The translations under genes were made by a program, and so were the position numbers. Below, in pieces: positions 2-34,100 of a DNA stretch of 37,772 nucleotides; position 1 is the first letter of the stretch; the number at the start of each line of letters is the position of its first letter. The notes under the pieces are model-generated. The model saw nothing but the letters and a program-made list of their open reading frames with translations. It ran no database searches and was not told the origin of the DNA. The stretch is taken from the NCBI GenBank assembly GCA_021731365.1, contig JAKFXL010000050.1:1-37772 (forward strand), given 5' to 3'. Origin of the DNA: Gammaproteobacteria bacterium (GTDB lineage Bacteria > Pseudomonadota > Gammaproteobacteria > Tenderiales > Tenderiaceae).

Positions 2-934
2 AACAACCCCACCACCGCCGCCAAAGTCGAACTGGGCAAACAGCTCTACTTTGATCCACGCCTATCAATCGATGGCACCGTCTCCTGTAACTCCTGCCAC
101 AACGTCATGGCCAACGGCACTGACAGCCGTGCTACCTCCGTCGGTGTTGACGGGCAGCGCGGCGGCAGAAGTGCACCCACCGTCTGGAATGCTGCCTTCC
201 TGAGCGCACAATTCTGGGATGGCCGCGCCAATACACTGGAAGATCAGGCTAAAGGTCCACCCTTAAATCCAATCGAAATGGGCATGCCCAGCGAAGCGGC
301 CATTGTCGAGCGGCTTAGTTCAATCTCCGGCTATGCTGAACAGTTCAATAAGGTCTTCGGCGGTAAAGATGCAGTAAGCTATGACAATATGGCTAAAGCC
401 ATTGCTGCCTTCGAACGGACATTAATCACCCGTAACAGCCCCTTCGACAGGTTTTTGGCTGGCGACAAAAAGGCCTTATCCAGCCAGGCACAAAATGGCA
501 TGAAACTATTTAAGGAGAGCGGGTGCAACGCCTGCCACAGCGGCCCCAACTTTGCCGGTCCACTGATGCCGGCGGGACAGGGTTTCTATCAAAAATTCCC
601 CATGTTCGCCAGCGACTACGACGCCAAATACAAGCTGCTGGAAGATACTGGCCGTCATGAGGTCACCAAGGATGAGAGCGATAAAAATGTCTGGCGTGTA
701 CCCAGCCTGCGGAACATCGCCCTAACCGCCCCCTACTTCCATAACGGTTCTGTGCAGACCCTGGACGAAGCGGTTCGTGTGATGGCCAAAGGCCAGCTTA
801 ATAAAGAGCTAACCGACAAAGAGACAGCAGATCTTGTCGCCTTCCTTGAAAGCTTAAGTGGCGAATTCCCTAAAATAGATATGCCACGTCTACCCGCCAC
901 AAGCGGCGGCAGCATCGTCGGCGCAACAAAATAA
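2..934 (+). CDS. Di-heme cytochrome c peroxidase (MauG/CcpA family), 5' end missing
   Basis: The reading frame is open from the left edge, so the N-terminus and any signal peptide lie outside the window. Two CxxCH heme-binding motifs are visible: CNSCH at 86-100 and CNACH at 524-538. This spacing and the late PYFHNGS motif are typical of bacterial di-heme cytochrome c peroxidases, which reduce hydrogen peroxide in the periplasm using electrons from small cytochromes. MauG-like relatives have other oxidative roles, so the exact reaction is inferred. The first methionine codon downstream (107) falls inside the first heme domain and cannot be the start. The gene ends just before a strong hairpin and converges on the HerA-like gene. 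Confidence 0.9.
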   Translation, partial: NNPTTAAKVELGKQLYFDPRLSIDGTVSCNSCHNVMANGTDSRATSVGVDGQRGGRSAPTVWNAAFLSAQFWDGRANTLEDQAKGPPLNPIEMGMPSEAAIVERLSSISGYAEQFNKVFGGKDAVSYDNMAKAIAAFERTLITRNSPFDRFLAGDKKALSSQAQNGMKLFKESGCNACHSGPNFAGPLMPAGQGFYQKFPMFASDYDAKYKLLEDTGRHEVTKDESDKNVWRVPSLRNIALTAPYFHNGSVQTLDEAVRVMAKGQLNKELTDKETADLVAFLESLSGEFPKIDMPRLPATSGGSIVGATK

Positions 935-953
935 ACACCCTGCAAAAATAGAT

Positions 954-981
954 AAAGGGACGCTAGGCGTCCCTTTGTTTT
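954..981. terminator. Bidirectional rho-independent terminator
   Basis: A perfect 10-bp stem (AAAGGGACGC / GCGTCCCTTT) closes a 3-nt loop and is followed by GTTTTAT. A-rich sequence on the left side also gives a T-rich tail on the minus strand. It lies between the convergent peroxidase and HerA-like genes and can serve both. Confidence 0.85.
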
Positions 982-1003
982 ATCTGGGTTTTATTTGGCC
1001 TAT

Positions 1004-2479
1004 TTAACGCCTGCCGCCCAGTAACGACCCAAGCAGACCGCGCACAATCTGCCGCCCCAGCTGACTGCCAATAGCACGTGCCGCACTTTTGGCCAGTGCA
1101 CTCACTACCGACTCAGGCCCCCTGGAAGAGGTTGATTTGGTAGACGTCTGTTTCACCTCCACACGCTGCTCTGCTTCAGCCGCTTGTGCCAATAGCGCTT
1201 CACTCCGTTTTTGCAGCAGTTCATAGGCCGACTCACGATCAACCAGGCTGTTGTATTTACTCGCCAGAGGTGAACGAGCCAACAGCGGTTGCCGCTCCTC
1301 CACCGTCAACGGCCCAATCCGCGACTGTGGTGGTGCAATCAGCACCCGTTCCACCATCGTAGGCTGCCCTTTATCATCAAGCACAGAGACTAACGCCTCA
1401 CCCACACCTAGCTGGCTGATCACCGTCTCGGTATCCAGTTTAGGGTTGCTACGCAAAGTTTGCGCGGCACTCTTGACTGCTTTTTGATCCTTGGGTGTGA
1501 AGGCACGCAATGCGTGTTGCACACGATTGCCCAACTGGCCCGCAATGTTGACAGGGATATCCGACGGCGTCTGACTAATGAAGTAGACCCCTACCCCCTT
1601 TGAACGAATCAGACGCACAACCTGTTCGATCTTATCTACCAACGCCGCTGGCGCATTTTTAAACAGTAGATGTGCCTCATCAAAAAAGAGCACCAGTTTA
1701 GGCCGATCGGGATCCCCCACTTCTGGTAGCTCTTCAAACAGTTCGGATAACAACCACAACAGAAAAGTAGCGTACAGACGTGGGCGCGGCATCAGTGACG
1801 TAGCATCCAGCATGCTCACCACACCATTGCCTGAGAAATCGACCTGCATCAGATCCTGTAACTGCAATGCCGGTTCAGCAAAAAACTGCTCCGCCCCCTC
1901 CTGCTCCAGTACCAGCAGACTGCGCTGAATAGCGGCAATACTGGCGCTGGAGAGGTTTCCATACTCCCTCTGCAACGCCTTGGCGTTGTCAGACAGCCAT
2001 GTCAACATGGAACGTAAATCTTTAAAATCAAGCAGCAACAACCCCTGGTCATCGGCAATCTTGAAGCAGGCGTACAATACCGCCTCTTGTGTACTGTTCA
2101 GCTCCAGCAAATTGGCCAGCAATAACGGCCCCATCTCTGAGATGGTGGTGCGTACAGGATGGCCAATCTGACCAAAAAGATCCCAAAAGACCACCGGATA
2201 GGGACGATTTTGATACTGAGTCAACTTTAACTGCTCTACACGTGCCTGAATCCGCTCATTCAGCCCCCCAGCCTTGGCTAGACCAGAAAGATCACCCTTG
2301 ATATCTGTAGCAAACACCGGAACTCCGGCCTGAGAAAACCCCTCAATCAAGGTCTGCAAGGTCACCGTTTTGCCCGTGCCCGTCGCCCCCGTAATCAAAC
2401 CGTGGCGATTCCCCATACGCAAACGTAAACTGACCGAAGTATCACCATCAGCACCAATAAACAGCCTATTTTCATCCAT
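1004..2479 (-). CDS. HerA-like ATPase of the YjgR / DUF853 family
   Basis: 491 residues, close to the usual length of E. coli YjgR. A Walker A motif GATGTGKT is at residues 31-38, and a Walker B-like segment ending in FFDEAH lies in the middle. The C-terminal part is low-complexity (K/T/S rich), followed by a glycine-rich tail ending [10 protein letters not shown]. The family belongs to the HerA/FtsK-like ATPases. It is annotated as a putative helicase or DNA-translocating ATPase, but its physiological role is not established. The start ATG at 2479 has only a weak purine stretch upstream. It stands alone: murI is divergent and the peroxidase converges. Confidence 0.9.
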
Positions 2480-2654
2480 CGTTTCTATCCCTTAATAACA
2501 GATGCCCTCCTTACAGAGGACTTACCACAACGTTACTGCATTTTCCCTCAAACCGGAATCAGTGAAGAGCAAAATTGGCGACTACTGTATTATTGGGGCG
2601 AGTTAATGGAGATCACCCGATCCCTCACAAAAAACATGATGAGTGTATTCATAG

Positions 2655-3452
2655 ATGTCCCAAGAGAACCCTGTGGCAGTATTCGACTCTGGCGTTGGTG
2701 GCCTGTCAGTACTGCGTGAAATCCGCAATCTGCTGCCACACGAGGATCTGCTCTATGTTGCCGACTCCGCACACGTGCCATACGGAGAGAAGAGCACGTC
2801 TTTTATCGAGACCCGCGCCATTCTCATTACTGAGTTTTTTATTCGGCAGCAAGCCAAAGCAGTTGTGGTCGCCTGCAACACAGCAACCAGTGCAGCTGTT
2901 GAAACACTGCGCGCCCGTTTTGACATCCCCATAATCGCTATGGAGCCTGCCATCAAACCCGCCGCACAACAGACACGCAGCAATGTTATTGGCGTTCTTG
3001 CCACCAGCGGCACACTCAGCAGCGAACGGTTTGCCAACCTCACCGCCCGTCACGGTAACGGTGTAAAAATTGTTGTACAGCCCTGCCCAGGCTGGGTGGA
3101 ACTGGTTGAACACGGCAATATCAATAATGAAGAGGCGCACATACTGGTGGACCGCTACGTCACGCCGCTGCTGGAAAAGGGGGTTGATACGTTAGTGCTT
3201 GGTTGTACCCACTACCCTTTCCTGAAGAATACAATTCAAAAAATAGCCGGAAGCAACGTCACCATTATCGACCCTAGCCCGGCTGTTGCCCGAGAATTAC
3301 AACGACGCCTCCATCACCATCAACTACTCAATCCAGATAAAAGCAAAAAGGGAGAGGATACTTTCTGGAGTAGTGGCAACTCAGCGCAAGTAACAGCGAT
3401 TATCTCAGCACTCTGGGGTGAAAACGTAACAATCAATAACTTGCCCGCCTGA
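2655..3452 (+). CDS. murI: Glutamate racemase
   Basis: 265 residues, full family length. It converts L- to D-glutamate for peptidoglycan precursor synthesis in the cytoplasm. The N-terminal motif FDSGVGGLSVL is diagnostic, and the two catalytic cysteines are visible: C74 in VVACNTATS and C184 in LGCTHYPF. The DSAHVPYG segment that follows the first strand is also typical. The ATG at 2655 immediately precedes MSQENPVAVFDSG; its Shine-Dalgarno sequence is weak. It is monocistronic as far as can be seen, and divergent from the HerA-like gene. Confidence 0.97.
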   Translation: MSQENPVAVFDSGVGGLSVLREIRNLLPHEDLLYVADSAHVPYGEKSTSFIETRAILITEFFIRQQAKAVVVACNTATSAAVETLRARFDIPIIAMEPAIKPAAQQTRSNVIGVLATSGTLSSERFANLTARHGNGVKIVVQPCPGWVELVEHGNINNEEAHILVDRYVTPLLEKGVDTLVLGCTHYPFLKNTIQKIAGSNVTIIDPSPAVARELQRRLHHHQLLNPDKSKKGEDTFWSSGNSAQVTAIISALWGENVTINNLPA

Positions 3453-3638
3453 AAACAAACCAACAAAGGCTATCAATCATAAAAACGGATGAGCCGGTAT
3501 CCATACCAGCCCCTCCGCCCCGGTAACAGCAGACTCAATACTCATAATGGGGGTGAGCTTTTGAGCCTGACTGTGCCAGACTGCAACAACCTGAGTATGA
3601 TAAAAATCAACATACTCGAAGCCGTTATTCATTTCATA

Positions 3639-3953
3639 TCAGAACGGTTGGCTACCGCCCATTTTGACCGCTGGATGTTCAACACCACGTAAAAAATCTT
3701 TTTGAATCGCTTTCACATCCGAGATCTTCAATAGATAAATAGAGCGACCAGAATCAACAGCACGCCTCTCCGCCATTATTACCCATTTGAGCAACAACGT
3801 ACTATCAACGCCACTTTTTCTGGCCAACGCTGCACGACCGCTGTTGCTACTGCATACTTTCATCAACAGTGCCACACGAAAGGCCCCCGAGGCAGATAAG
3901 GCCTCAACCCCTTTTGAAAAAACAGCCCTATTTTCATCCATTAATCTGGCCAT
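3639..3953 (-). CDS. Diverged DUF4332-family small protein (cassette 1, second gene)
   Basis: 104 residues. The central stretch (SGRAALARKSGV...LLLKWVIMAE) lines up by eye with TGRKALAEKSGI...LILKWVNMAD of the protein at 11891-12298, which is a clear DUF4332 protein. The first helix-hairpin-helix-like IEGIGPKYAEAL of that paralogue is here replaced by an unrelated-looking segment that keeps only EALSAS. The C-terminal part is shorter and different. GAGG lies 7 nt before the ATG, so the gene still looks translatable. It is the second gene after the protein at 3997-4389, the same order as in cassette 2. It is either a fast-diverging functional copy or a decaying one; function unknown. Confidence 0.7.
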   Translation of the reverse strand: MARLMDENRAVFSKGVEALSASGAFRVALLMKVCSSNSGRAALARKSGVDSTLLLKWVIMAERRAVDSGRSIYLLKISDVKAIQKDFLRGVEHPAVKMGGSQPF

Positions 3954-3996
3954 GTTACACCTCTGTTAAAACAACAGTTTTATCTCACTATTGCCA

Positions 3997-4389
3997 TCAC
4001 TCATCACAATGAGTTTTGTCCTTTTTGTCCATGCTAAACCACACTGTTTTCTGACTGCCTTCCACACTCATACCACCATCACTACTGCTACTGATCAATC
4101 CCATAATTTTTGGCAGTAATACCAACATCCCATCCTTAGCCAACATTGGTTCTATTGATGTATTGAATGCCAACAGATCAATGTCAATTTTCTGCATCAA
4201 TGCCATAACAGAAGATGTGCTGTCCGATGACGTAAATTGAGAAATATCCTGCAGCGATACCACATTAACCACCGTACGCACCGCCTCTGGCAAAAAACGT
4301 ACAGACTGTTCGAAACTAAACTCCTTATAAACAAGCAACGAGGTTAACAAGCCTCCATTTATCTCAATAATTTTGTTTGTAATATCCAT
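3997..4389 (-). CDS. Small protein paralogous to the 12345-12722 product (cassette 1, first gene)
   Basis: 130 residues from the ATG at 4389. This start is chosen because GGAGGA sits 8 nt upstream and because the paralogue begins at the same alignment position; a GTG at 4407 is in frame but lies in the ribosome-binding region. Shared landmarks with the other copy are MDI..II...G.L.SLLV, F..EQ...FLPEA, ALMQKIDI and LLPKI. The glycine-rich tail of the paralogue is replaced by an S/D/K-rich end. Similar small proteins are called DUF937 or DUF2780, but I am not certain of the family. No signal peptide or membrane segment is visible. A shared operator-like repeat lies about 100 nt upstream (4488-4504). 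Confidence 0.7.
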   Translation of the reverse strand: MDITNKIIEINGGLLTSLLVYKEFSFEQSVRFLPEAVRTVVNVVSLQDISQFTSSDSTSSVMALMQKIDIDLLAFNTSIEPMLAKDGMLVLLPKIMGLISSSSDGGMSVEGSQKTVWFSMDKKDKTHCDE

Positions 4390-4487
4390 AATAAAAGTCC
4401 TCCACACTACTTGAGCAGTGGCTACATAAGTAGCTCTCCCATCAACTATCGTCTATGAACGCTTTCTATACAATGGCAAAAACCACG

Positions 4488-4504
4488 CTTTTACACTGTT
4501 TTAC
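4488..4504 (-). promoter_or_regulatory. Operator-like direct repeat upstream of cassette 1
   Basis: The plus-strand sequence CTTTTACACTGTTTTAC contains two TTTAC half-sites one helical turn (10 bp) apart. The same 16-17 bases occur upstream of cassette 2 and, with two changes, upstream of ompA. On the transcribed strand a possible -35 box TTGCCA (4474-4479) follows 8 nt later. The geometry fits an OmpR/PhoB-family activator site; the binding protein is inferred to be the regulator at 6260-6940. Confidence 0.6.
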
Positions 4505-4711
4505 CAGGAGGTGAATTGAGAGACCGGAGAGGGAAGCATCATCACAAAAGTAAACTCATAACCGCTCTGCAGTACAACCATAAAAAATTGTTAAGAAACT
4601 ACAGAATTAATACAGAACTCTAGTGTATTGGATAAAAAAAGACAAAAACAGAAAATAGCCAGCCAATGATTAGCAGGCATAAATCAAATAAGAGGGGGTA
4701 ATATAAAGGGT
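4505..4711. other. Non-coding stretch between the cassette 1 operator and the ompA terminator
   Basis: A/T-rich sequence with no credible reading frame or RNA gene that I can recognise. Together with the operator and the ompA terminator it makes up the 364-nt gap between cassette 1 (start 4389) and ompA. Confidence 0.5.
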
Positions 4712-4743
4712 AAAAAACTTCCCGGCGCTATTAGCGCCGGGAA
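4712..4743 (-). terminator. Rho-independent terminator of the OmpA-like gene
   Basis: TTCCCGGCGCT and AGCGCCGGGAA form an 11-bp GC-rich stem with a tiny loop. On the minus strand the hairpin is followed by a T-run (plus-strand TAAAAAAC at 4711-4718). It begins about 10 nt after the ompA-like stop codon. Confidence 0.85.
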
Positions 4744-4753
4744 ACCTCAAACA

Positions 4754-6013
4754 TTAACGCTGCAGAATATGCAATTCAACACGACGGTTAGCACTACGGC
4801 CAGTGGCTGTAGCGTTATCTGCCACAGGCTTGTCCGGACCGTAACCCTTGGTCTTAAGGTTATCCGCCTTAACACCTTTACCTACCAGATAAGCGGCCAC
4901 AGAATCAGCACGCTGCTGTGACAAACGACGGTTCAGACTTACAGAACCAGTGCTTGAAGTATGACCTGCAACTTCCACCACCATAGTTGAGTATTTCACC
5001 AACGTTGTCGCCATATCGTCCAGAACAGTTTGTGACTCGTCGGTTAACTTGGCAGAACCTGTTTCAAAGTTAACACCCTTCAGGACAATAACCTCTTCCA
5101 GCTCACACCCTTTGCTATCAACACGGGCATCTGCCTTACTGTCTGGACATTTATCAGCACTATCAGCGATGCCATCCTTATCACCATCCAATTCGCACCC
5201 TTTGGCATCAACCTTGGCACCAGCCGGTGTATTCGGACAGCTATCTTTACTATCACTCACACCATCCTTATCGCTATCAAGTTCACACCCCATAGCATCA
5301 ACCTTGGTACCTTTTGGTGTGTCAGCACATTTATCCATACTGTCCTTAACGCCATCCGCATCGCTGTCACCATCCACTGGGGCTGGTTTTGCCACAGGCG
5401 CGGGGGCTGGAGCCACAATTTTAGCAACCACAGGTGCTGCAACAACCGCTGCTACCGGTACAGCCTTCGCACCAATCGGCATCATCAAACCAACATTCAC
5501 CATCCAGTCACCAAAACGGTCAACACCGGGCATGCGGTCATCGTTGTCGAGACGGTAACGTACATCACCACGCAGGTTGATGCCTGAATCGGTCAAACTA
5601 CGCATCACACCAACACCGGCATTCACCATGGCATTATTGTCACTGTCACCAGCAACTTCAGTACGCAGTACACCTGCACCAATCACTGCATAGGGTGAAA
5701 AGCTCATGGAACGGTCAAAGAAGTAAAGACCATCCAACTGAGCGCCACGCTGCTTGTATTTGTTAGCACTAGATTCAAAATCGAGGTTATCAGCAGCCAG
5801 ACTCAACTCCAGATTCCACATGTTTGAGATCTGTTTACCAAGCCCCAGCATCAACCCCACATCATTGTCAGCGGTACGATCACTATCCGCATTGATGTAG
5901 GAAAGCGAAGGCACAAAATAAGTTCTTTCATCCGTGGTACCAGCCATCGCCTGTGTAGCAACGGCAGTCAGCGCCAGCGTCACACCGGCAATAGCACGTT
6001 TTCCGTATAGCAT
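4754..6013 (-). CDS. OmpA-family outer-membrane protein with thrombospondin type 3 repeats
   Basis: 419 residues. A signal peptide ends near AMAG (about residue 25). An eight-strand OmpA-like beta-barrel domain follows (about 30-180), then an Ala/Pro/Val-rich linker. Three calcium-binding type 3 repeats (DSDADGVKDSMDKC, DSDKDGVSDSKDSC, DGDKDGIADSADKC) lead into a C-terminal OmpA/MotB-like domain that binds peptidoglycan in the family. In this domain the usual GHTD reads GHTS, so the Asp that contacts diaminopimelate in OmpA is replaced by Ser, while the partner Arg in LSQQRADS is present. AAGGAG lies 6 nt before the ATG. The gene is divergent from the response regulator operon and has an operator-like repeat and promoter upstream. 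Confidence 0.92.
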   Translation of the reverse strand: MLYGKRAIAGVTLALTAVATQAMAGTTDERTYFVPSLSYINADSDRTADNDVGLMLGLGKQISNMWNLELSLAADNLDFESSANKYKQRGAQLDGLYFFDRSMSFSPYAVIGAGVLRTEVAGDSDNNAMVNAGVGVMRSLTDSGINLRGDVRYRLDNDDRMPGVDRFGDWMVNVGLMMPIGAKAVPVAAVVAAPVVAKIVAPAPAPVAKPAPVDGDSDADGVKDSMDKCADTPKGTKVDAMGCELDSDKDGVSDSKDSCPNTPAGAKVDAKGCELDGDKDGIADSADKCPDSKADARVDSKGCELEEVIVLKGVNFETGSAKLTDESQTVLDDMATTLVKYSTMVVEVAGHTSSTGSVSLNRRLSQQRADSVAAYLVGKGVKADNLKTKGYGPDKPVADNATATGRSANRRVELHILQR

Positions 6014-6110
6014 TAAGTACTCCTTTCAAAGTTAGGGTTTGGGTTACTGCAAATCTGGGGATAGCTCTATATTTTTGTATGCTGCCATGTAGTCTGGCAT
6101 TTATGGCGTG

Positions 6111-6139
6111 AGGATACGCATTTACGCCCCCCTTCTCAA
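6111..6139 (-). promoter_or_regulatory. Predicted sigma-70-type promoter of the OmpA-like gene
   Basis: On the minus strand TTGAGA (6134-6139) and TATCCT (6111-6116) are separated by exactly 17 nt. The operator-like repeat ends 13 nt upstream of the -35 box, a position suited to activation. The 5' leader would be about 95-100 nt. Confidence 0.45.
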
Positions 6140-6152
6140 CTAGTGCTGTGAT

Positions 6153-6171
6153 CTTTTACACTACTTTACAC
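6153..6171 (-). promoter_or_regulatory. Operator-like direct repeat upstream of the OmpA-like gene
   Basis: The plus-strand sequence CTTTTACACTACTTTACAC is a near-perfect direct repeat of CTTTACAC with 10-11 bp period. The first ten bases are identical to those of the elements at 4488 and 12831. It lies between the divergent ompA-like and response regulator genes and could control both. Confidence 0.6.
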
Positions 6172-6204
6172 CTTTGAGGGAAAATCAACCAGCCTTAACG
6201 CCGG

Positions 6205-6235
6205 TTGAATGGAGGCCAAACATATACTGTATAAT
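6205..6235 (+). promoter_or_regulatory. Possible promoter of the response regulator operon
   Basis: TATAAT (6230-6235) is a consensus -10 box. The best -35 candidate, TTGAAT (6205-6210), is 19 nt upstream, slightly long. Transcription would start near 6242, giving a short leader before the ATG at 6260. Confidence 0.4.
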
Positions 6236-6259
6236 CGCCACAAATTTTGGAGATACAAA

Positions 6260-6940
6260 ATGCGTATTGCCCTCATCGAGGATGATCCTACACAGGCATC
6301 ACTTCTAAAAAGCTGGTTAACGGCTGCCGACCATCACGTGCACCATTATGACAGCGGTGAGAGTTTTACCCGTGCACTAAATCAGGAGAGTTTTGATCTC
6401 ATGGTGATGGACTGGGGGTTACCTGACATTAGTGGCATTGAGCTGGTGAAAAGTGTTCGAGCCAAAGACACCTTGGTTCCTGTACTCTTTATTACCAGTC
6501 GTGATAGCGAACAGGATATCGTGGCGGCCCTTGCCGCAGGTGCTGATGATTATCTTATCAAACCACCACGTCAAGGCGAAACACTGGCACGCATCGCCGC
6601 ACTGCAGCGCCGCAGCCAAGTGGGGGACAATGAGGAGAACCTGCTTCAATTTGGTCCCTACACCCTTGATAGTGAGCGCAATACGGTTCTTTATAACGAC
6701 GAGGTGATTCAGTTTACCCACAAAGAGTTTAAATTCGCCCATTTTCTATTTCAGAACCGCAACCGGCTGTTATCACGCGGCCACCTGTTGGAAAATGTCT
6801 GGGGATTAAACGCCGAAGTAACAACACGCACCGTCGATGTACACGCCAGCAAAATCCGTCGCAAACTGGGGTTGAGCACTGCCAACGGCTGGCGTCTGGT
6901 ATCAATTTACCAATATGGTTATCGCCTTGAAACGCTATAG
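6260..6940 (+). CDS. OmpR/PhoB-family response regulator
   Basis: 226 residues. The start is set at the ATG at 6260, with GGAGA 6 nt upstream and the sequence opening MRIALIEDD; an in-frame ATG at 6209 lies inside the probable promoter. The receiver domain spans about residues 1-115, with acidic E/D at 8-10, phospho-acceptor D51 in VMDWGLPD, the Thr/Ser switch in FITSRD and the Lys in YLIKPPR. The C-terminal winged-helix DNA-binding domain (about 130-225) contains FTHKEF and the recognition region VDVHASKIRRKL. It is the first gene of an operon with the LysM/FecR protein and the CHASE2 kinase, its likely partner. It probably binds the TTTACA direct repeats found at three promoters here. Confidence 0.93.
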   Translation: MRIALIEDDPTQASLLKSWLTAADHHVHHYDSGESFTRALNQESFDLMVMDWGLPDISGIELVKSVRAKDTLVPVLFITSRDSEQDIVAALAAGADDYLIKPPRQGETLARIAALQRRSQVGDNEENLLQFGPYTLDSERNTVLYNDEVIQFTHKEFKFAHFLFQNRNRLLSRGHLLENVWGLNAEVTTRTVDVHASKIRRKLGLSTANGWRLVSIYQYGYRLETL

Positions 6941-6990
6941 TTAAGCGATTGCAACCTCATCGTATGGGCATCCTCTCAGAGAACATATTC

Positions 6991-8595
6991 ATGGCTACGC
7001 GCACTAATGGCTCAGGAAAGGGCCGATTACAACGCCTGCTGTTAGCCTCACTGATGTTTATCATCGTCATTAATAGTAGTTATGGCAGTGACTGGGTCTA
7101 TACAGTGCGCCCCGGCGACAGCATCTGGCAACTGTCACAGCAGTACCTCAAAAACCCCAACCAGTGGCCTGACGTGCAAAAACTTAATAACATCAGCAAT
7201 GCACAGGCCATGCGTCCCGGTACGCGAATCACCATCCCTGTCGAATGGTTAAAACACTCGCCCAAACCCGCACAAATCATCAAGAGCCATGGCGATGTCA
7301 CGCTCGCCAACGATGGCAAAATACGCCCCTTTACTCCACCTGCCATTATCAATAGTGGTGATACGTTAAGCAGTGGCAATAACAGTAGCGCCACCATTGA
7401 ATTTGCTGATGGATCACTGCTGATTCTCCAGCCAAACAGTGAGGTATCAATGGATAGCCTCGGCAGCTTTGATGCCACAGGCATGGTTGATACTTCAGTG
7501 CGATTAAAAAAAGGGCGTGTTGAGAACAGGGTGGCCCCACAAAAACCTGACAGTCGCTACCGCATTATCACACCGGCAGCTGTGGCCGCCGTACGTGGCA
7601 CCGAGTTCCGGGTGGGCGGCGACAATGGCGGCGCGCTCATGCGCAGTGAAGTGCTGGGTGGCAAAATTGCTGTCACCGGCTCTGGTGTCACCCGTGAGGT
7701 CCCATTAGGCTACGGCACCGTTGCTGAAAGCGGCAAGCCGCCCTCCGAACCCGAACCCCTGCCAGCGGCACCGGATCTATCAGGCCTAACCCAGCGTGGT
7801 TCACAATCGGGTATCAGCTTTCACTGGCCTGCGGTAAACGGCGCTGTCGGTTATCGCGCTCAACTGGCCTACAGCGAAGAGTTCACCACCGTGCTTCGCG
7901 ACGAACTACTGAAGAGCCCCGAGCTCACACTACTCAACCTGGAACCAGCCAATTACGTGCTGCGGCTGCGTGCCATCAACCAATCGGGACTGGAGGGATT
8001 TGATGCCTTGCACTCGTTTACCATCATCGCTCCGATCGCCATGCCACGCCCCACCACCCCCGAAGACGGGGCGACACTAACGTTAGGCAAACCCTGGATC
8101 GGCTGGTCCGCCACCCCCGATACAAGCTTTTATCTGCTACAACTGGCGACAGACGTACAGTTCACCGCCAATCTTCAAGAGATCAGCGGCATCGTCAACA
8201 ACCACTACCGCCCTCTTGATGATCTCCCCGCTGGCCCCTACTACTGGCGTGTGGCCAGTTTCGCCAGCAACATCAAAAGCGAATTCAGCACCCCACGACA
8301 GTTCCTTATCTCAACCAAACCTGCACCCCCTGGCGCGATCAGTGTCACACTCAATCAGCGTGACGCAGACTTTAACTGGGGGACTATTGATGGCGCGGCA
8401 GAGTACCAGTTCCAACTTAGCCCCTATGAAGACTTTACTGCCCTCACCATCAACAGCCGTACCAGCGATAACCACTACGGCGTTAAGTTGCTCGCCCCCG
8501 GCCATTATCACTACCGCGTCCGTGTGATCAACGATGATGGCCAAAGCGGTCCCTACGGCCCTGTCGGGGTACTGGTGGTACCCAATGCGCCCTGA
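6991..8595 (+). CDS. Secreted LysM-FecR domain protein with fibronectin-like repeats
   Basis: 534 residues from the ATG at 6991, which has AGAGAA about 8 nt upstream; in-frame alternatives at 6949 (TTG) and 6964 (ATG) lack a ribosome site. A hydrophobic signal (LLLASLMFIIVI) ends near residue 32. It is followed by a LysM domain (about 36-86, YTVRPGDSIWQLSQQY), which binds peptidoglycan in this family. A FecR domain (about 100-240) includes GDTLSS, TIEFADGSLLILQPNS and AAVAAVRGTEFRV. Three beta-rich, fibronectin type III-like segments follow (about 265-535), each with a Y.(W/F)R(V/L)... motif. It sits between the regulator and the CHASE2 kinase, an arrangement known for FecR and CHASE2 proteins. 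I infer a periplasmic accessory or sensor component coupling the cell wall to the kinase. Confidence 0.88.
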   Translation: MATRTNGSGKGRLQRLLLASLMFIIVINSSYGSDWVYTVRPGDSIWQLSQQYLKNPNQWPDVQKLNNISNAQAMRPGTRITIPVEWLKHSPKPAQIIKSHGDVTLANDGKIRPFTPPAIINSGDTLSSGNNSSATIEFADGSLLILQPNSEVSMDSLGSFDATGMVDTSVRLKKGRVENRVAPQKPDSRYRIITPAAVAAVRGTEFRVGGDNGGALMRSEVLGGKIAVTGSGVTREVPLGYGTVAESGKPPSEPEPLPAAPDLSGLTQRGSQSGISFHWPAVNGAVGYRAQLAYSEEFTTVLRDELLKSPELTLLNLEPANYVLRLRAINQSGLEGFDALHSFTIIAPIAMPRPTTPEDGATLTLGKPWIGWSATPDTSFYLLQLATDVQFTANLQEISGIVNNHYRPLDDLPAGPYYWRVASFASNIKSEFSTPRQFLISTKPAPPGAISVTLNQRDADFNWGTIDGAAEYQFQLSPYEDFTALTINSRTSDNHYGVKLLAPGHYHYRVRVINDDGQSGPYGPVGVLVVPNAP

Positions 8596-8611
8596 ACAGG
8601 GCTGACCGTAA

Positions 8612-11272
8612 ATGAAGCACCGTTGGCAGCGCTTTGCCATACCACAACAGTTTGGTTTTGCGATATTGCTGATCGGCATTACCCTGGGGCTTAGTTATGG
8701 CGACTGGCTCTGGCGTGCTGACAAAGCGCTTTATGATGCCAATCACCGCCTGCTGGCCCGTCCAGCAGCACCTGAAATAGTCATTGTGGCTGTGGATGAA
8801 TACAGCCTCTCCAGTCTGGGGCGCTGGCCGTGGCCACGTCACCTGCACGCCGAGCTGATTGACCAGCTGACCCGTGCGGGTGCCGATACCATCATCCTCG
8901 ATTTTATCTTTGCAGAACCTGACAACAGTGATCCCGGTAATGATATTGCCCTGGCCGCGGCCATGCAGCGCCACGGTCGAGTAATCCTTCCACTCCTGGT
9001 AGAGGAGCGCCAACTTGGCGGCCAACTGCTGGAGACACTGCCACTCCCCGAGTTTGTCAGTGCCGCTGCAGGGATCGGCCATGCCCACATGGAGTTGGAT
9101 GCCGATGGCATCGCCCGTAGCGTCTATCTGCAAGAGGGGCTGGCAACACCGCGCTGGCCACACCTCACCGTTACGGCACTCAGGCTACAGGAGCCAACCC
9201 GATGGCAAACCCTTCCTGGTCGCCACAACCCCAAGGCCGAACCCAACAATACCTCTCCTCACCTGCTGATGCGTGACTCACAAATACTGGTCCCCTTTGC
9301 GGGCCCCCCCGGCCACTACCCCCACATCTCTTACGCTGAGGTGGTTACCGGGCACTATCTAGCCGATACATTTAGAGGCAAAACTGTCCTTGTTGGCACC
9401 ACTGCCACCGGTCTTGGTGACGTTTTGCCAACGCCTGTTTCAGGCTTTAACCAACCCATGCCAGGGGTTGAGATCAACGCCAACATCTTTGACGCCCTGC
9501 AGAATGAGCTAGCCGTAGAGCCACTCCCACAGTGGCTACGAACTACCATCAGCCTCATCATCATATTAATACCCGTGCTACTCTTCTCACGGCTCACCCC
9601 TCGGGCAGCGCTACTCACCACCGGCACCCTGCTATTCGCCAGCCTCGCCCTCAGCGCCCTGCTCATCCACCGTTTTCAACTCTGGTTTCCACCCGCAGCC
9701 GTGGTTATCCCGCTACTACTGGCCTATCCACTCTGGAGCTGGCAGCGGCTGGAGTACGCCAACCGCTTTCTGACGCTGGAGTTAAAACGACTGCGCGATG
9801 AGCCCACCCTGACCCAACTCCCCCCTGTTGATGACATGAAACAGGTGATGCAATTTGTACAGCAACAGCTACCCATCACAGGCTGGGCCTTATACAACAG
9901 TGCTGGCCAGAAAATCGCCACCTGGGGCCAGCCACCCATTACGCTGTCACCCACACAGAAAACAGAACAGTGGTACAGCCACCAGATGGGAGAGTGGTGG
10001 ATAACATTTGAACGTGAGGAACAGCAGTGGCGACTCGGCATCAGCAGTGGTAATACAGCGCCGCCAACAATCGAACAGGAACATCTACTGCTGAACCTGA
10101 TACAACCGTGGCTTCCCGCCAGAGAGCAGGAGTCAGCCAGCCGTATTGAACGCTTCGAAACACGGGTACAAGCCGTACAGGAGGCGGTAACACGAATGCA
10201 GACCATGCGCCGTTTTATTAACGACAGCCTCTCACAAATGGCCGATGGCGTCATCGTTATAAACACCCTCGGACAGATTATCCTCATCAATCCTAAGGCC
10301 GTCGCTTACTTCGGACTACCGCCGGAAACAGAGACACTCACCGGCCACTCCGCCATTGAACTGCTCAACCGACTCGACAATACACGGCCAGAGCGCTGGG
10401 AGCGGCTACTGGCGCTACCACTCAAAACAGGAGAAACAGCACAGAGCGAAACACGCAGCAGCACCGGGCGCGACCTGCTGGTACGTTGCGCGCCACTCAC
10501 CCTGGAACAGCAGCAGCGTAACGGCCTGGTCATCAATCTCTCCGACATCACCCACCTGCTTGATATCGAGCGAACACGTGCTGATACCCTGCGCTTCCTC
10601 ACCCACGATCTGCGTGCACCACTGGTATCACTACTCGCCTTATCCCAGCTTGCCCGCGCACCAGAGGCTGATATCGCCCATGAGGAACTGATCAATCGTG
10701 TCGAAGAACATGCTCAAACCACACTCACCCTCGCCGAAGAGTTCCTCAACCTCAGCCAGATTGAAGGGGCACTACACCTGGAACTGCGACCCGTAGAACT
10801 AACCACCGTCGCCCTCAACGCCATCGACGCAGTATGGGACCAGGCACGCATGAAGCAGATCACCCTCGTTGAAGCGCTGCCCGAATCACTGATCCTGGTC
10901 ATGGCTGACCCCACCGTACTACAACGTGTACTGGTCAACCTGCTCAGCAACGCCATCAAGTACAGCCCGGCCAATACCAGCATCGAACTCACTATCCAGA
11001 CCGCTCATACAACCGTAACGTGCTGTGTCCACGACCAAGGCAGCGGCATTACAGCCACAGAGATCCCCCAGCTCTTCGAACGTTTTTATCGTACCCCCAG
11101 CGCCATTAACTCCGGCATCCAGGGCACCGGGCTCGGACTTGCGTTTGTCAAAGCCGCCATGGAAAAACTAGGAGGCAGCGTCACTGTGACAAGTGAAGCA
11201 GGAAAAGGGGCATGTTTCTGCATCCGCCTGCCACAGCTCGAAGGGCCCCAAAATGATGGCGTAACAAATTGA
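8612..11272 (+). CDS. CHASE2-domain sensor histidine kinase
   Basis: 886 residues. A first membrane helix (about 14-32) leads into a periplasmic CHASE2 sensor domain (about 33-300) with the typical EIVIVAVDEYSL and GRWPWPR motifs, then three closely spaced helices (about 307-375). A cytoplasmic PAS-like domain lies at about 535-640. The phospho-accepting H665 lies in FLTHDLRAPL, and the ATPase domain shows an N box (LVNLLSNAIKYSP), DQGSGI and GTGLGLAFVK. The gene starts 16 nt after the FecR gene, so it is co-transcribed and is very probably the kinase for the response regulator. The signal is unknown; CHASE2 is an extracytoplasmic sensing domain. Confidence 0.93.
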   Translation: MKHRWQRFAIPQQFGFAILLIGITLGLSYGDWLWRADKALYDANHRLLARPAAPEIVIVAVDEYSLSSLGRWPWPRHLHAELIDQLTRAGADTIILDFIFAEPDNSDPGNDIALAAAMQRHGRVILPLLVEERQLGGQLLETLPLPEFVSAAAGIGHAHMELDADGIARSVYLQEGLATPRWPHLTVTALRLQEPTRWQTLPGRHNPKAEPNNTSPHLLMRDSQILVPFAGPPGHYPHISYAEVVTGHYLADTFRGKTVLVGTTATGLGDVLPTPVSGFNQPMPGVEINANIFDALQNELAVEPLPQWLRTTISLIIILIPVLLFSRLTPRAALLTTGTLLFASLALSALLIHRFQLWFPPAAVVIPLLLAYPLWSWQRLEYANRFLTLELKRLRDEPTLTQLPPVDDMKQVMQFVQQQLPITGWALYNSAGQKIATWGQPPITLSPTQKTEQWYSHQMGEWWITFEREEQQWRLGISSGNTAPPTIEQEHLLLNLIQPWLPAREQESASRIERFETRVQAVQEAVTRMQTMRRFINDSLSQMADGVIVINTLGQIILINPKAVAYFGLPPETETLTGHSAIELLNRLDNTRPERWERLLALPLKTGETAQSETRSSTGRDLLVRCAPLTLEQQQRNGLVINLSDITHLLDIERTRADTLRFLTHDLRAPLVSLLALSQLARAPEADIAHEELINRVEEHAQTTLTLAEEFLNLSQIEGALHLELRPVELTTVALNAIDAVWDQARMKQITLVEALPESLILVMADPTVLQRVLVNLLSNAIKYSPANTSIELTIQTAHTTVTCCVHDQGSGITATEIPQLFERFYRTPSAINSGIQGTGLGLAFVKAAMEKLGGSVTVTSEAGKGACFCIRLPQLEGPQNDGVTN

Positions 11273-11366
11273 AAAACATAGATAAAACAATCTATATACA
11301 CACTACATTTGAATTAATGTGTACCATCGCTGTCTTCAAACCGCAGCCATTACATACACCAAGAGG

Positions 11367-11825
11367 ATGATGAGCAATATGGTCATGGAAACACATCGTG
11401 GTATTGCCACAGAGATTGTTAAAGCAGACAGAGGCAATACTGTTAAGTGCCGCCTTGGCGAAAACCACGCCCTGATACACTCAGACCTGCAACGTGTTGT
11501 TAAAGAGGGTGATGAGATCATTGTCGCCGGCGATCTGCGAGAAGGTACCGTCTATGCACTGGCACTGAAAAACGTGACCCACAACAAATCGGTAAGAATC
11601 GACGGTTCCAACTACACACTATTAATCGGCGCGGGGCTATTCTGCTGGTTACTCGGTTTTGTCTTCTACATACAAACCATGACCTCTGGCAATACCACCA
11701 TCATCTCACTTAACCTGTTGTTATCCGCAGGTGGATTTATCGTCGGCATCTGGGCAATCACACAGGTATTGCGTATCCGGCGCGCAGCCATATATGTTGC
11801 ACGTCTTGCATCTACCGTTCAGTAA
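11367..11825 (+). CDS. Small membrane protein of unknown function
   Basis: About 152 residues. The start is uncertain: ATGs at 11367, 11370 and 11379 are in frame behind AAGAGG, and an in-frame upstream ATG at 11319 is less well placed. The first ~75 residues are polar and look beta-rich (GIATEIVKADRGNTVKCRL, EGDEIIVAGDLREG), possibly a small barrel on the cytoplasmic side. Two hydrophobic helices follow (about 88-108 and 115-137), then a basic tail (LRIRRAA). I do not recognise the family; the layout loosely recalls NfeD-like or DUF-type membrane proteins. It follows the CHASE2 kinase by about 95 nt on the same strand and ends at a strong terminator, so it may be read through from that operon. 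Confidence 0.75.
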   Translation: MMSNMVMETHRGIATEIVKADRGNTVKCRLGENHALIHSDLQRVVKEGDEIIVAGDLREGTVYALALKNVTHNKSVRIDGSNYTLLIGAGLFCWLLGFVFYIQTMTSGNTTIISLNLLLSAGGFIVGIWAITQVLRIRRAAIYVARLASTVQ

Positions 11826-11835
11826 TCCTGAATAA

Positions 11836-11862
11836 AAAAGGGATGACAGTGTCATCCCTTTT
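11836..11862. terminator. Bidirectional rho-independent terminator
   Basis: AAAAGGGATGAC and GTCATCCCTTTT form a perfect 12-bp stem with the loop AGT. It lies between the convergent membrane-protein gene and cassette 2 and supplies a T-run on either strand. Confidence 0.85.
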
Positions 11863-11890
11863 CAGCGCCCGATCTTCAAGCACTACAATA

Positions 11891-12298
11891 TTAATGGGTA
11901 ACCATGGGTGGCAACTCGCCCGCCTGAGCAATCCAGCCTTCAACTACCTTGGCACTCGGCACAGCACGGGTCAATTTCATCTCGGCGTTCACCTCAGCCA
12001 TCTTTTTTGCCAGGTTGTCACCATTACGGGTACGCATCTCCTTCACCGTATCCACACCTGCGGCATGCAACAACTCAGCAAACTGGCCAGCAACACCCTT
12101 GATACGAAACAGGTCAGCCATGTTTACCCATTTCAGAATCAGGGATTCACTAATACCACTTTTCTCTGCCAGTGCCTTACGCCCGGTCTTGCTGCTCCCC
12201 ATGCTCAGCAGTTGCTCTGTGGTAAGAACACTTGCAACAGACAACGCCTCAGCGTACTTCGGGCCAATGCCTTCGATTTCAACAATTTTCTTTGCCAT
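11891..12298 (-). CDS. DUF4332 protein (cassette 2, second gene)
   Basis: 135 residues, full length for DUF4332. The N-terminus EIEGIGPKYAEAL is a helix-hairpin-helix-like motif. A second one appears as LFRIKGVAGQFAELLHAAGVDTVKEM, and the C-terminal RAVPSA..VEGWIAQA is characteristic. Such tandem motifs resemble those of DNA-binding helix-hairpin-helix proteins, but no function is established for the family and a nucleic-acid role is inference. GGGAGAG lies 6 nt before the ATG. It follows the small protein at 12345-12722 by 46 nt and is very probably co-transcribed with it. A diverged paralogue lies at 3639-3953. Confidence 0.88.
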   Translation of the reverse strand: MAKKIVEIEGIGPKYAEALSVASVLTTEQLLSMGSSKTGRKALAEKSGISESLILKWVNMADLFRIKGVAGQFAELLHAAGVDTVKEMRTRNGDNLAKKMAEVNAEMKLTRAVPSAKVVEGWIAQAGELPPMVTH

Positions 12299-12344
12299 TC
12301 AATTCTCTCCCATGATGATTAAATTTAATGTTTCAGACTACGGC

Positions 12345-12722
12345 TTATGAAAACAGCTTCTTCACACCACCAAGCAGATTATCGTTACCACCCAACAACG
12401 CCCCCAGACCACCGCCATCGTTGCCCAACAACTGTACAATTTTGGGTAACAGGGCATTCAATCCGGTAGTAGCCATCTCTGCGTTGATGCCAGCTGCGGA
12501 AGCCAACGCACCAACATCAATTTTCTGCATCAGACCCGCAACAACTGAGGCACCACTTCCCGACAACAGACCAGCAATCCCTTCCTGAGGCGCGGCCTTC
12601 ATCACCTGATCAGCCGCGGCAGGCAGAAACTGCTTGGCCTGCTCCAGATTAAAACCTTTGTCTACCAACAGTGAAGAAAGCTCGCCAGAATGGCTTTTAA
12701 TAATTCCATCTAAAATATTCAT
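12345..12722 (-). CDS. DUF937/DUF2780-like small protein (cassette 2, first gene)
   Basis: 125 residues from the ATG at 12722, which matches the start of the cassette 1 paralogue; GGAG lies 10 nt upstream, and a GTG two codons earlier is possible. The protein is rich in Ala, Leu and Gly: helices (GIIKSHSGELSSLLV, LEQAKQFLPAAADQVM), a glycine-rich turn, ALLPKIVQLL and a low-complexity tail GGLGALLGGNDNLLGG. No signal peptide is visible. The family assignment is tentative. An operator-like repeat identical to that of cassette 1 lies 109 nt upstream, suggesting common control. Confidence 0.78.
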   Translation of the reverse strand: MNILDGIIKSHSGELSSLLVDKGFNLEQAKQFLPAAADQVMKAAPQEGIAGLLSGSGASVVAGLMQKIDVGALASAAGINAEMATTGLNALLPKIVQLLGNDGGGLGALLGGNDNLLGGVKKLFS

Positions 12723-12830
12723 AGTCACCTATCTCCAGAGTGAAAAAACGTTAGATTTATTAAGTATTTTTATATTGCAACTCGACACATGGTACACCAG
12801 CTAACCCCCGCCAAGCACAATACCATACCC

Positions 12831-12848
12831 CTTTTACACTGTTTTACA
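12831..12848 (-). promoter_or_regulatory. Operator-like direct repeat upstream of cassette 2
   Basis: The plus-strand sequence CTTTTACACTGTTTTACA is identical over 17 bases to the element before cassette 1. It lies in the gap between the pstB-like gene and cassette 2, 109 nt before the cassette start. No strong -10/-35 pair could be assigned; TTGTGC (12815-12820) is a possible -35. Confidence 0.6.
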
Positions 12849-31101: not shown

Positions 31102-34100
31102 CTACTGCCAGTTAGCAGCGATGACTGGTGTCAGCGCCGCCTCGTACTCAGGCGACAAGCTCGTCTGTCCGGCAGCTGGTGGGGAAAATGCTGCCATTGC
31201 ACTGACGAGATTTTCCACTTGAGTATCCAGCAACTGCTTACCATCTGCGGTCTTAAATTGCTCTACGCGGTACTGACTACCCAAGTACCAATCTTTTATC
31301 ACCAGCGAGTCAGTTGTACCGATAATACTAACGTTAAGGTTGTTACCCAGATGTTGGAACCACAATTGGTTGGCTGCAATGCTGGCACTGAATAATGCGA
31401 CATCGGTATTGCCAGCGGTGGCATCGTTTTCCGTCACTGTATCGACACCGTAACCACGACCAAACAGGTAACTATCATTGCCTGTGCCGCCGATCAATGA
31501 GTCATTCGCTGCCGCACCATCAAGAGTATCGTTCCCAGCACCACCTGTTAAGGTGTTTGCCGCACTATTTCCGACGAGGATATTATTGAGTGAATTGCCG
31601 GTACCGTTAATCGCAGAAGTACCCGTTAATGTAAGATTTTCAACGTTTGCGACCAAGGTATAGGTGACCGAACTCTTGGCCATATCCGTACCTTCGTTAA
31701 CATTTTCAGTGATGACATCACTGGCGTTATCCACGACATAAGTATCATCGCCCGCACCACCGATCAACCTGTCGGCACCCGCGCCACCATCCAGCGTGTC
31801 GTTACCCGCGCCGCCGGTCAGCGTGTTAATGGCACTATTACCGATCAATATATTATCGAGTGTATTACCCGTGCCGTTGATAGCCGTGGTCCCCGTGAGG
31901 GTAAGGTTTTCGACGTTATTGCCAAGTATATAGGTGATACTGCTCTGCACTGTATCAATCCCTTCGTTAGCATTTTCGGTAACAACATCGCCAGTGTTAT
32001 CCACAATATAGAGATCGTTACCCGTGCCACCATTCAGTTTGTCAGCGCCTGTACCACCATTAAGTGTGTCGTTACCTGCCCCACCATTCAAGATGTTAAC
32101 TGCGCTATTACCAATCAGTATGTTATCAAGATCATTGCCTGTTCCATTGATTGCAGTAGTGCCAGTCAGCGTGAGATTTTCCACATTAACACTCAATGTG
32201 TATGTAACGGAGCTTTGAACAAGATCCGTGCCTTCGTTAAGGTTTTCGATGACAACATCACTGATATTGTCGACAACATAGGTATCATTGCCTGCACCGC
32301 CACTCATGGTGTCTGCCCCAGTACCACCACTCAGAGTATTGTTGGCACTGTTACCCATCAGGATGTTATTAAGGGTGTTGCCTGTACCATTAATAGCCGC
32401 TGACCCAGTAAGCGTAAGATTCTCAACATTCGCCGCAAGTGTGAATGTAACGCTGCTCAGTACAGAATCGCTGCCTTCATTGGCATTCTCAGTGATAAGA
32501 TCACCGGCGTTGTCGACGATATAAAGGTCATTCCCAACACCTCCAATCAATTTATCAGCGCCCGCACCACCATCTAGAGTGTCGTTACCCGCACCACCGG
32601 TGAGTGTGTTGATGGCACTATTACCGATCAGAACATTATCAAGGGCATTACCAGTACCATTGATAGCAGCGGTCCCCGTCAGGGTGAGATTTTCTACGTT
32701 ATTACCGAGCGTATAGGTGACACTACTCTGCACCAGATCCGTTCCTTCGTTGGTATTTTCAGTGACTACGTCACTAACATTATCTACCACATAGGTATCG
32801 TTGCCTGTGCCACCAGACATCTTATCTGCACCCGCACCACCATCTAAAGTGTCGTTACCGGCACCGCCGGTCAATGTGTTGATCGCACTATTTCCGGTCA
32901 AAATGTTATCGAATGCGTTACCCGTGCCGTTGATAGCAGTGGTTCCCGTGAGGGTAAGGTTTTCAATGTTATTGCCAAGTGTATAGGTGACGCTACTCTG
33001 CACCGTGTCAACGCCCTCGTTGACGTTTTCGATCACTACATCACTGGCGATATCGACGACGTAGATATCATTACCCGTACCGCCGATCATGGTATCGGCA
33101 CCAGCTCCACCATTAAGTGTGTCATTGCCAGCACCACCATTCAAGATATTAACAGCACTGTTACCGGTCAGAATGTTATCAAGATCGTTGCCTGTGCCAT
33201 TAACCGCCGCAGTGCCTGTGAGGGTGAGGTTTTCAATGTTGTCACCCAGGATATACGTGACTGAGCTCTGTACCAGGTCTGTGCCTTCATTGAAATTCTC
33301 AATGACAATATCGCTGATGTTATCCACGACATAAGTATCATTGCCAGCACCACCAACCATAGTATCAGCCCCTATACCACCACTCAAAATGTTGGCAGCA
33401 CTGTTACCAATCAATATATTGTTGAGGATATTGCCAGTACCATTTATCGCTGCTGCGCCTATCAACGTAAGGTTTTCAACATTAGCGGTTAAAGTGTAGG
33501 TGACACTACTTTGTACTGTGTCTATACCTTCGTCAGAATTTTCAGTGATAACATCGCCGGTGTTATCCACAATATAAGTATCATCACCTATACCACCTAT
33601 CAATATGTCGGCACCGGCACCACCATCAAGGGTATCGTTACCGGCACCGCCAGTCAGTGTATTAACTGCACTATTGCCGATGATTAGATTATCTAAAGTA
33701 TTTCCTGTGCCATTGATCGCAGCTGTTCCTGTAAGGGTTAGGTTTTCGATATTGCTATTAATCGTATATGTAACTGAACTCCTGACTAGATCTGTGCCTT
33801 CATTGGGGTTCTCAATTACAACGTCCGAAACATTATCAACTACATACATATCATTCCCATCACCACCGATCAGTGCGTCAGCGCCAGCCGATCCATCAAG
33901 CAGATCATTGCCGCCATAACCATAGATCAGATCAGCGGCAGCAGTTCCTGTCAAGGAGTCATTGCCGTTAGTGCCCGAGACAATATTGCGGGTTGTATTC
34001 ACAGTGATTGAAAATATATCCACTGCTTCCTCCCCTAGCTGATCATAAGCAATGACACGAACAGATAGGGTCCCCATGTCCTGAAGTCCCGGTGAGCCAC

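Follow-up and report, generated by a model that had tools for sequence, protein, structure and literature searches.

Gene content of the window

The stretch of DNA analysed here (the window, 37,772 nucleotides) carries on its plus strand the genes of an OmpR-type regulator, a secreted LysM-FecR-FN3 protein and a CHASE2-PAS histidine kinase, and on its minus strand an ompA gene divergent from the regulator (Table 1). This gene set was confirmed by Pfam and agrees with the content reported in the first-pass annotation of the sequence (OmpA, regulator, LysM-FecR-fibronectin-like protein, CHASE2 kinase).

Table 1. Genes and predicted regulatory sites at the ompA/regulator locus (positions in the window)
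Feature	Position	Strand	Basis
YidB-like 3997-4407 (paralog of 12345-12728) and DUF4332-like 3639-3953; predicted target	3639..4407	-	HMM matches
Second box copy TTTTACAC-TGT-TTTAC, ~80-100 bp 5' of the 3997-4407 gene	4489..4504	+	
OmpA: beta-barrel, three TSP3 calcium-type repeats, OmpA peptidoglycan-binding domain; predicted target	4754..6013	-	Pfam
Direct-repeat box TTTTACAC-TAC-TTTAC, ompA/regulator intergenic; predicted regulator binding site	6154..6169	+	
OmpR/PhoB-type response regulator	6257..6940	+	Pfam Response_reg and Trans_reg_C; alignment, nine orthologs
Secreted LysM-FecR protein with three FN3-like modules	6991..8595	+	Pfam, alignment, AlphaFold model
CHASE2-PAS-HisKA-HATPase histidine kinase	8612..11272	+	Pfam, alignment
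YidB/DUF937-like 12345-12728 and DUF4332 11891-12298 (Pfam 1e-38); predicted target	11891..12728	-	
Third box copy TTTTACAC-TGT-TTTAC, ~104 bp 5' of the 12345-12728 gene	12832..12847	+	

The open reading frame of the regulator opens at position 6209, and the start conserved in the alignment with nine orthologs lies at 6257. No named NCBIfam equivalog was matched by this protein at its cut-off: the CreB model gave 147.9 bits (cut-off 273), and the RppA and PhoB models scored higher, also below their cut-offs. In the LysM-FecR gene, whose frame opens at 6949, the likeliest start is the ATG at 6991, which is followed by a stretch resembling a signal peptide as judged by eye. The frame (6949-8595, plus strand) matched the Pfam families FecR (3e-16), LysM (3e-8) and Ig_J, while an fn3 match (E 4e-5) remained just below the Pfam cut-off. 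Its AlphaFold model reached a mean pLDDT of 87, and a fold search of the PDB with this model gave mostly FN3 tandems among the 50 matches listed. Same-family relatives possess a shorter LysM-FecR protein, which according to the alignment lacks the third FN3-like module. For the kinase (8612-11272, plus strand), Pfam disclosed CHASE2 (2e-55), PAS, HisKA and HATPase_c; the motif H665-D666-x-R668-x-P670 is invariant across nine aligned kinases.

The gaps between the three genes amount to approximately 50 bp (regulator/LysM-FecR) and 16 bp (LysM-FecR/kinase), and terminator- or promoter-like sites were not found above chance level inside the block, which fits an operon. This three-gene operon belongs to the already published BiofilmReg type (PMC5192318); new is a testable suggestion as to which operator and targets it has. 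The combination with LysM, which the first-pass annotation had set beside the known FecR-CHASE2 association, is not new but part of the published operon as well (PMC5192318).

The minus-strand gene at 4754-6013 encodes a product with Pfam matches to OmpA (E 7e-22), a beta-barrel (3e-12) and thrombospondin type 3 repeats (3e-10), the translation of which contains three D-x-D-x-D-G units. It belongs to the OmpA family by a C-terminal PF00691 and an N-terminal barrel PF13505, both above cut-off. An inverted repeat (6185-6208) with 12-nt arms of 83% identity is situated between the box and the start of the regulator gene and resembles a terminator on the minus strand. The gene located 3' of the kinase (11319-11825) did not match any Pfam family above cut-off. 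A gene for a HerA-like ATPase (PF05872) lies near the operon at 1004-2479 and directly 5' of the regulator in the loci L080 and L088. Furthermore, the window contains a minus-strand open reading frame of 2221 codons at 31102-37767.

Co-conservation of the LysM-FecR and CHASE2 proteins

Named genomes were searched with a LysM-FecR profile alone. The 80 loci found in this way, L070 and the window make up 82 loci, in 80 of which a CHASE2 gene is situated directly 3' of the LysM-FecR gene; the contigs of L115 and L117 end 1 bp after that gene. A regulator gene lies upstream of LysM-FecR in 39 of the 82 loci. Addition of 18 loci from a class survey and of two plasmid loci gave 102, which were reduced to 92 unique loci (51 kinase-type and 41 others) by removing L115, L117 and eight duplicates. 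These data bear out the co-conservation of kinase and FecR protein that had been suggested for the locus, yet three of the 51 kinase-type loci (L289, L303 and L305) are devoid of a nearby LysM-FecR gene, which is present in the remaining 48.

Seven of the 41 other loci were studied by Pfam. Six of them encode GGDEF and EAL domains (one with a partial EAL) and one a short protein comprising only CHASE2 and PAS. By motif strings, GGDEF was detected in 31 and EAL in 33 of the 41 loci, and the remainder are mostly short open frames. In the regulator-less loci within L091-L152 (e.g., L091, L094, L119 and L132), LysM-FecR is followed by a CHASE2-PAS-GGDEF-EAL protein, which gives the same sensor pair a c-di-GMP output. 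Hosts of this arrangement are Competibacter, Nitrosomonas, Accumulibacter, Thauera and Nitrospirota, and an earlier description of it was not found in the excerpts returned by a literature search. At L071 (6223-10305), the neighbour of LysM-FecR is a hybrid histidine kinase that combines CHASE2 with a receiver domain of its own. The system extends over many Gammaproteobacteria and some Betaproteobacteria, e.g., Methylophilaceae. The records of L115 and L097 are titled Halobacteria archaeon and Synechococcaceae, respectively; their loci resemble proteobacterial ones and are probably mis-binned contigs.

LysM-FecR and CHASE2 are thus the constant part of the system, while the output varies between kinase plus regulator and GGDEF-EAL. 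The pairing persists whichever output is attached, which suggests that LysM-FecR is the sensor partner. The protein might instead serve the cell as a structural component or an adhesin, and indeed its FN3 tandem is similar to modules of the adhesion type and the phenotype published for the operon concerns biofilm formation: a strain of Burkholderia contaminans with an interrupted regulator makes no biofilm (Voronina et al. 2016; PMC5192318). However, LysM-FecR stays beside CHASE2 when the output is GGDEF-EAL or a hybrid kinase (L071), and is therefore tied to the sensor and not to one particular output, which makes an adhesive role instead of a sensory one improbable. Even further from our expectation is a function as in FecIR, with the protein serving in anti-sigma or iron-citrate signalling and the kinase sensing something separate. 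The Pfam FecR domain is compatible with it, and an iron-dicitrate sensor has been offered as a reading of this domain (PMC5192318). Nonetheless, neither a FecI-type sigma factor nor a TonB-dependent receptor was present among the Pfam-scanned genes of 107-12728, and the LysM and FN3 modules together with the CHASE2 partner in 80 of 82 loci speak for another role, so that we consider the FecIR reading highly unlikely.

Neighbourhood of the operon and direct repeats in the source genome

A divergent ompA gene was found in four of the 51 kinase-type loci, the window included, and was rejected as a general feature. It was seen in none of the nine closest system-bearing relatives, two of which (G007 and G008) have contigs ending within ~430 bp 5' of the regulator, so that a divergent ompA would not be visible there. 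The adjacency of ompA, on which the first-pass annotation had built, is hence not general. In a wider neighbourhood of 9 kb, genes with an OmpA domain occurred in 10 of the 51 kinase-type loci as opposed to none of the 41 others (p 0.002), and DUF4332 genes in seven as opposed to none (p 0.016); for YidB-like genes nearby the values were five and none (p 0.063). The locus L299 of G168, which belongs to a different family, mirrors the window: it exhibits a divergent ompA on the minus strand, two boxes between ompA and the regulator, and YidB-like and DUF4332 genes 3' of the kinase.

The region between ompA and the regulator contains an exact 7-bp direct repeat, TTTACAC, at 6155-6161 and 6165-6171, corresponding to a step of 10 bp. 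Exact copies of TTTTACAC-N3-TTTAC were detected four times in the source genome (3.41 Mb), three of them in the window, but only twice in 29 other genomes, indicating that the repeat is more than chance. The four boxes reside in front of ompA/regulator, of two YidB-like genes and of a secreted 323-residue protein on contig C21, and in all of them the strand reading GTAAA is oriented toward these genes. A promoter scan yielded one weak site directed to ompA (9/12 matches), no better than shuffles.

The YidB/DUF937 label of 12345-12728 is based on a weak match, below cut-off, of its homolog in L088, and the DUF4332 match of 3639-3953 is weak, too (Pfam E 0.003, below cut-off). Homologs of the pair at 11891-12728 adjoin the operon in L080, L088, L293 and L299. 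In the window, two paralogous pairs of YidB-like and DUF4332-type genes flank the block of ompA and operon, with the same box 5' of each; they look like a duplication within one regulon. The fourth exact box precedes the gene of the secreted 323-residue protein (L193:5266-6237, source genome) by ~150 bp; this protein did not match any Pfam family above cut-off.

It is conceivable, though rather unlikely in our estimation, that we are dealing with an ordinary operon of the BiofilmReg type with other targets, that ompA is a chance neighbour, and that the box is read by another OmpR-family or a CpxR-like regulator. A chance neighbour is suggested by the nine closest relatives, in which no divergent ompA was seen, but it is at odds with the distribution of the GTAAA-N5-GTAAA sites. 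Genome-wide there are ten of them, compared to five for the reversed control, and three of the ten cluster at the operon in the window, which makes up 1.1% of the genome (binomial by hand ~1.5e-4). As to the reader of the box, GTAAA-N5-GTAAA on the opposite strand fits the CpxR consensus GTAAA-(N)4-8-GTAAA (PMC5063474). CpxR itself was nevertheless rejected, as the source genome does not contain an equivalog: its best score was 146.2 bits against an NCBIfam cut-off of 341, and the regulator of the operon attained about 106 bits (105.8-106.5) with the same model. The genome encodes eight full-length OmpR-family regulators including the operon's own, and one of the seven others could read the box; the comparison with other lineages bears on this point.

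Recurrence of the repeat in other lineages

Exact boxes, even of the looser TTWAC-N5-TTWAC form described below, were absent from the Burkholderiales loci L258 and L259 and from the regions 5' of the regulator in the same-family relatives L073-L075, L077, L081 and L082. As the window was the only one with the exact TTTACA/GTAAA box among 39 regulator upstream regions (one of zero bases and one of 87 bases), this box was rejected as a universal operator; a looser TTWAC form recurs. Repeats of the type TTWAC-N5-TTWAC with a 10-bp period were visible in several of ten loci inspected, and this form was derived after their inspection. Within 250 bp 5' of the regulator it was found in six of 38 loci, three of which (L070, L115 and L126) are outside the ten used for the derivation; 200 shuffles gave a mean of 0.135 and a maximum of two. 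Every other spacing from 0 to 20 gave at most one in the 38 upstream regions. In regulator-less loci the repeat did not occur 5' of LysM-FecR (0/40).

The intergenic DNA of the 51 kinase-type loci harbors 18 exact sites at spacing 5, confined to eight of these loci, compared to zero to five sites at spacings 0-4 and 6-15. None was present in the intergenic DNA of the 41 other loci. The reversed control pattern gave 11 intergenic matches in four kinase-type loci and six matches in six other loci. Regions 5' of regulator, ompA, YidB-like and DUF4332 genes contained 13 sites in 13.5 kb, whereas five were found in 97 kb of other intergenic DNA. After exclusion of the five discovery loci (window, L120, L112, L128 and L089), four sites in 10.4 kb faced none in 79 kb (p 2e-4). 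A reader other than the operon's regulator is thereby disfavoured, for the boxes recur at the regulator promoter elsewhere and are missing from intergenic DNA of regulator-less loci. DUF4332 pairs elsewhere in system-bearing genomes had a box within one mismatch near five of ten; because of their mixed orientation and the lack of a shuffle control, they were not counted as evidence.

ompA as a candidate target in other genomes

The best ompA homolog was taken in 30 genomes with the system (29 matched) and in 30 without it (20 matched). Some genomes gave two loci, and after removal of one duplicate and of cases at contig or locus edges, 25 upstream regions were usable in each group. A box within one mismatch was identified upstream of ten of 25 ompA genes in genomes with and of one of 25 in genomes without the system, the compared genes being not all strict orthologs. 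Leaving out the three ompA genes near the operon, the ratio was 7/22 to 1/25 (p 0.015). For barrel-type ompA, whose upstream regions have a G+C content of 0.458 with and 0.526 without the system, the box was present in eight of ten system-bearing genomes (shuffle expectation 0.84) and in none of seven others (0.44); away from the operon, the values were 6/8 and 0/7 (p 0.006). Spacing 5 yielded eight hits in the ompA upstream regions, spacings 2-4 and 6-9 one to three. G052, a genome without the system, contains an exact box before an ompA gene. Since the two groups of genomes are not matched in kinship, nor their ompA regions in G+C content, we regard this comparison as support, not as proof.

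The comparative counts support the predicted link between box and ompA, and the results on both point to a putative envelope regulon. Thus, the DNA element common to ompA and regulator, the weakest claim of the first-pass annotation, fared best, backed by genome-wide as well as comparative counts.

Proposed mechanism and comparison with known systems

On the basis of these sequence data, we think it probable that the locus encodes a two-component system of the BiofilmReg type that senses the envelope and whose regulator would act via TTWAC-N5-TTWAC on ompA and envelope genes. The LysM-FecR protein would sit on the periplasmic peptidoglycan through LysM, a binding expected from the LysM family, and its FecR/FN3 part may be presented to CHASE2 of the kinase in the inner membrane. 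A change in the state of wall or envelope would alter the kinase activity, and the kinase would phosphorylate the OmpR-type regulator. The latter is predicted to bind the direct repeat with 10-bp period, TTWAC-N5-TTWAC (here TTTTACAC-N3-TTTAC), 5' of its own operon and of ompA and, in the source genome, also of the two YidB-like/DUF4332 pairs and of another gene, which codes for a secreted protein. In this way, the system would tune small envelope proteins and an outer-membrane protein anchored to peptidoglycan. That the wall or the calcium-type repeats of OmpA provide the sensed signal is a guess. The similar circuit outlined in the first-pass annotation is upheld as to kinase/FecR co-conservation and shared element, but not as to the novelty of its LysM combination.

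More tentatively, and with slightly less than even confidence, LysM-FecR and CHASE2 may be seen as an exchangeable wall-state sensor, which is coupled either to a kinase and regulator or to c-di-GMP enzymes as its output. The kinase form would have a DNA code of its own, TTWAC-N5-TTWAC, with the TSP3-bearing OmpA anchor and the YidB-like/DUF4332 pairs as core regulon, so that the linkage of outer membrane and wall would be sensed and reset by feedback. With a candidate operator and target set, recognition by CHASE2 and the targets of the regulator become testable by ordinary means. If a sensor bound to the wall did act back on an outer-membrane protein anchored there, a biofilm switch would be tied to envelope mechanics.

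CpxAR responds to an envelope signal and differs from the present system in the sensor domain of its kinase and in its accessory protein. Common to both are the OmpR-type regulator and a box of the form GTAAA-N-GTAAA (PMC5063474). In Sinorhizobium meliloti, the receptors CyaD1, CyaD2 and CyaK likewise possess CHASE2, and their activation requires the outer-membrane beta-barrel protein NsrA (PMC13001267); the FecR-domain protein SMc02177 has been studied there among the Clr targets (PMC5498481). These receptors have a second-messenger output, however, and NsrA is an upstream receptor (PMC13001267), whereas ompA looks like a target here. The CHASE2 adenylate cyclase clusters of Campylobacterota also encode a FecR-domain outer-membrane protein together with a CHASE2 receptor, but their output is cAMP and they are completed by a TPR protein and a phosphodiesterase (PMC9239204).

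The closest known system is the BiofilmReg operon (PMC5192318). Most published BiofilmReg regulators belong to the CreB subfamily; full orthologs of the operon were reported in Burkholderiales only, and partial ones in two Pseudomonas strains. According to that paper the CHASE2 ligand is not known; the sections consulted name no target genes of the regulator, and the words OmpA, GGDEF, 'binding site' and 'outer membrane' are absent from its main text. The DUF4136 gene, the fourth gene in nearly all Burkholderia members, is missing from the operon in the window; as the three-gene form has been inferred to be ancestral (PMC5192318), this gene is not defining for the wider group. Both operons share the order of regulator, LysM-FecR protein and CHASE2-PAS histidine kinase on one strand, a second protein that is secreted (here with a signal peptide judged by eye) and contains LysM and FecR, and a kinase composed of CHASE2, PAS, HisKA and HATPase_c. 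The operon described here differs in its host, a gammaproteobacterium outside the published range (PMC5192318), and in the ompA and YidB-like/DUF4332 neighbours and the candidate box found with it.
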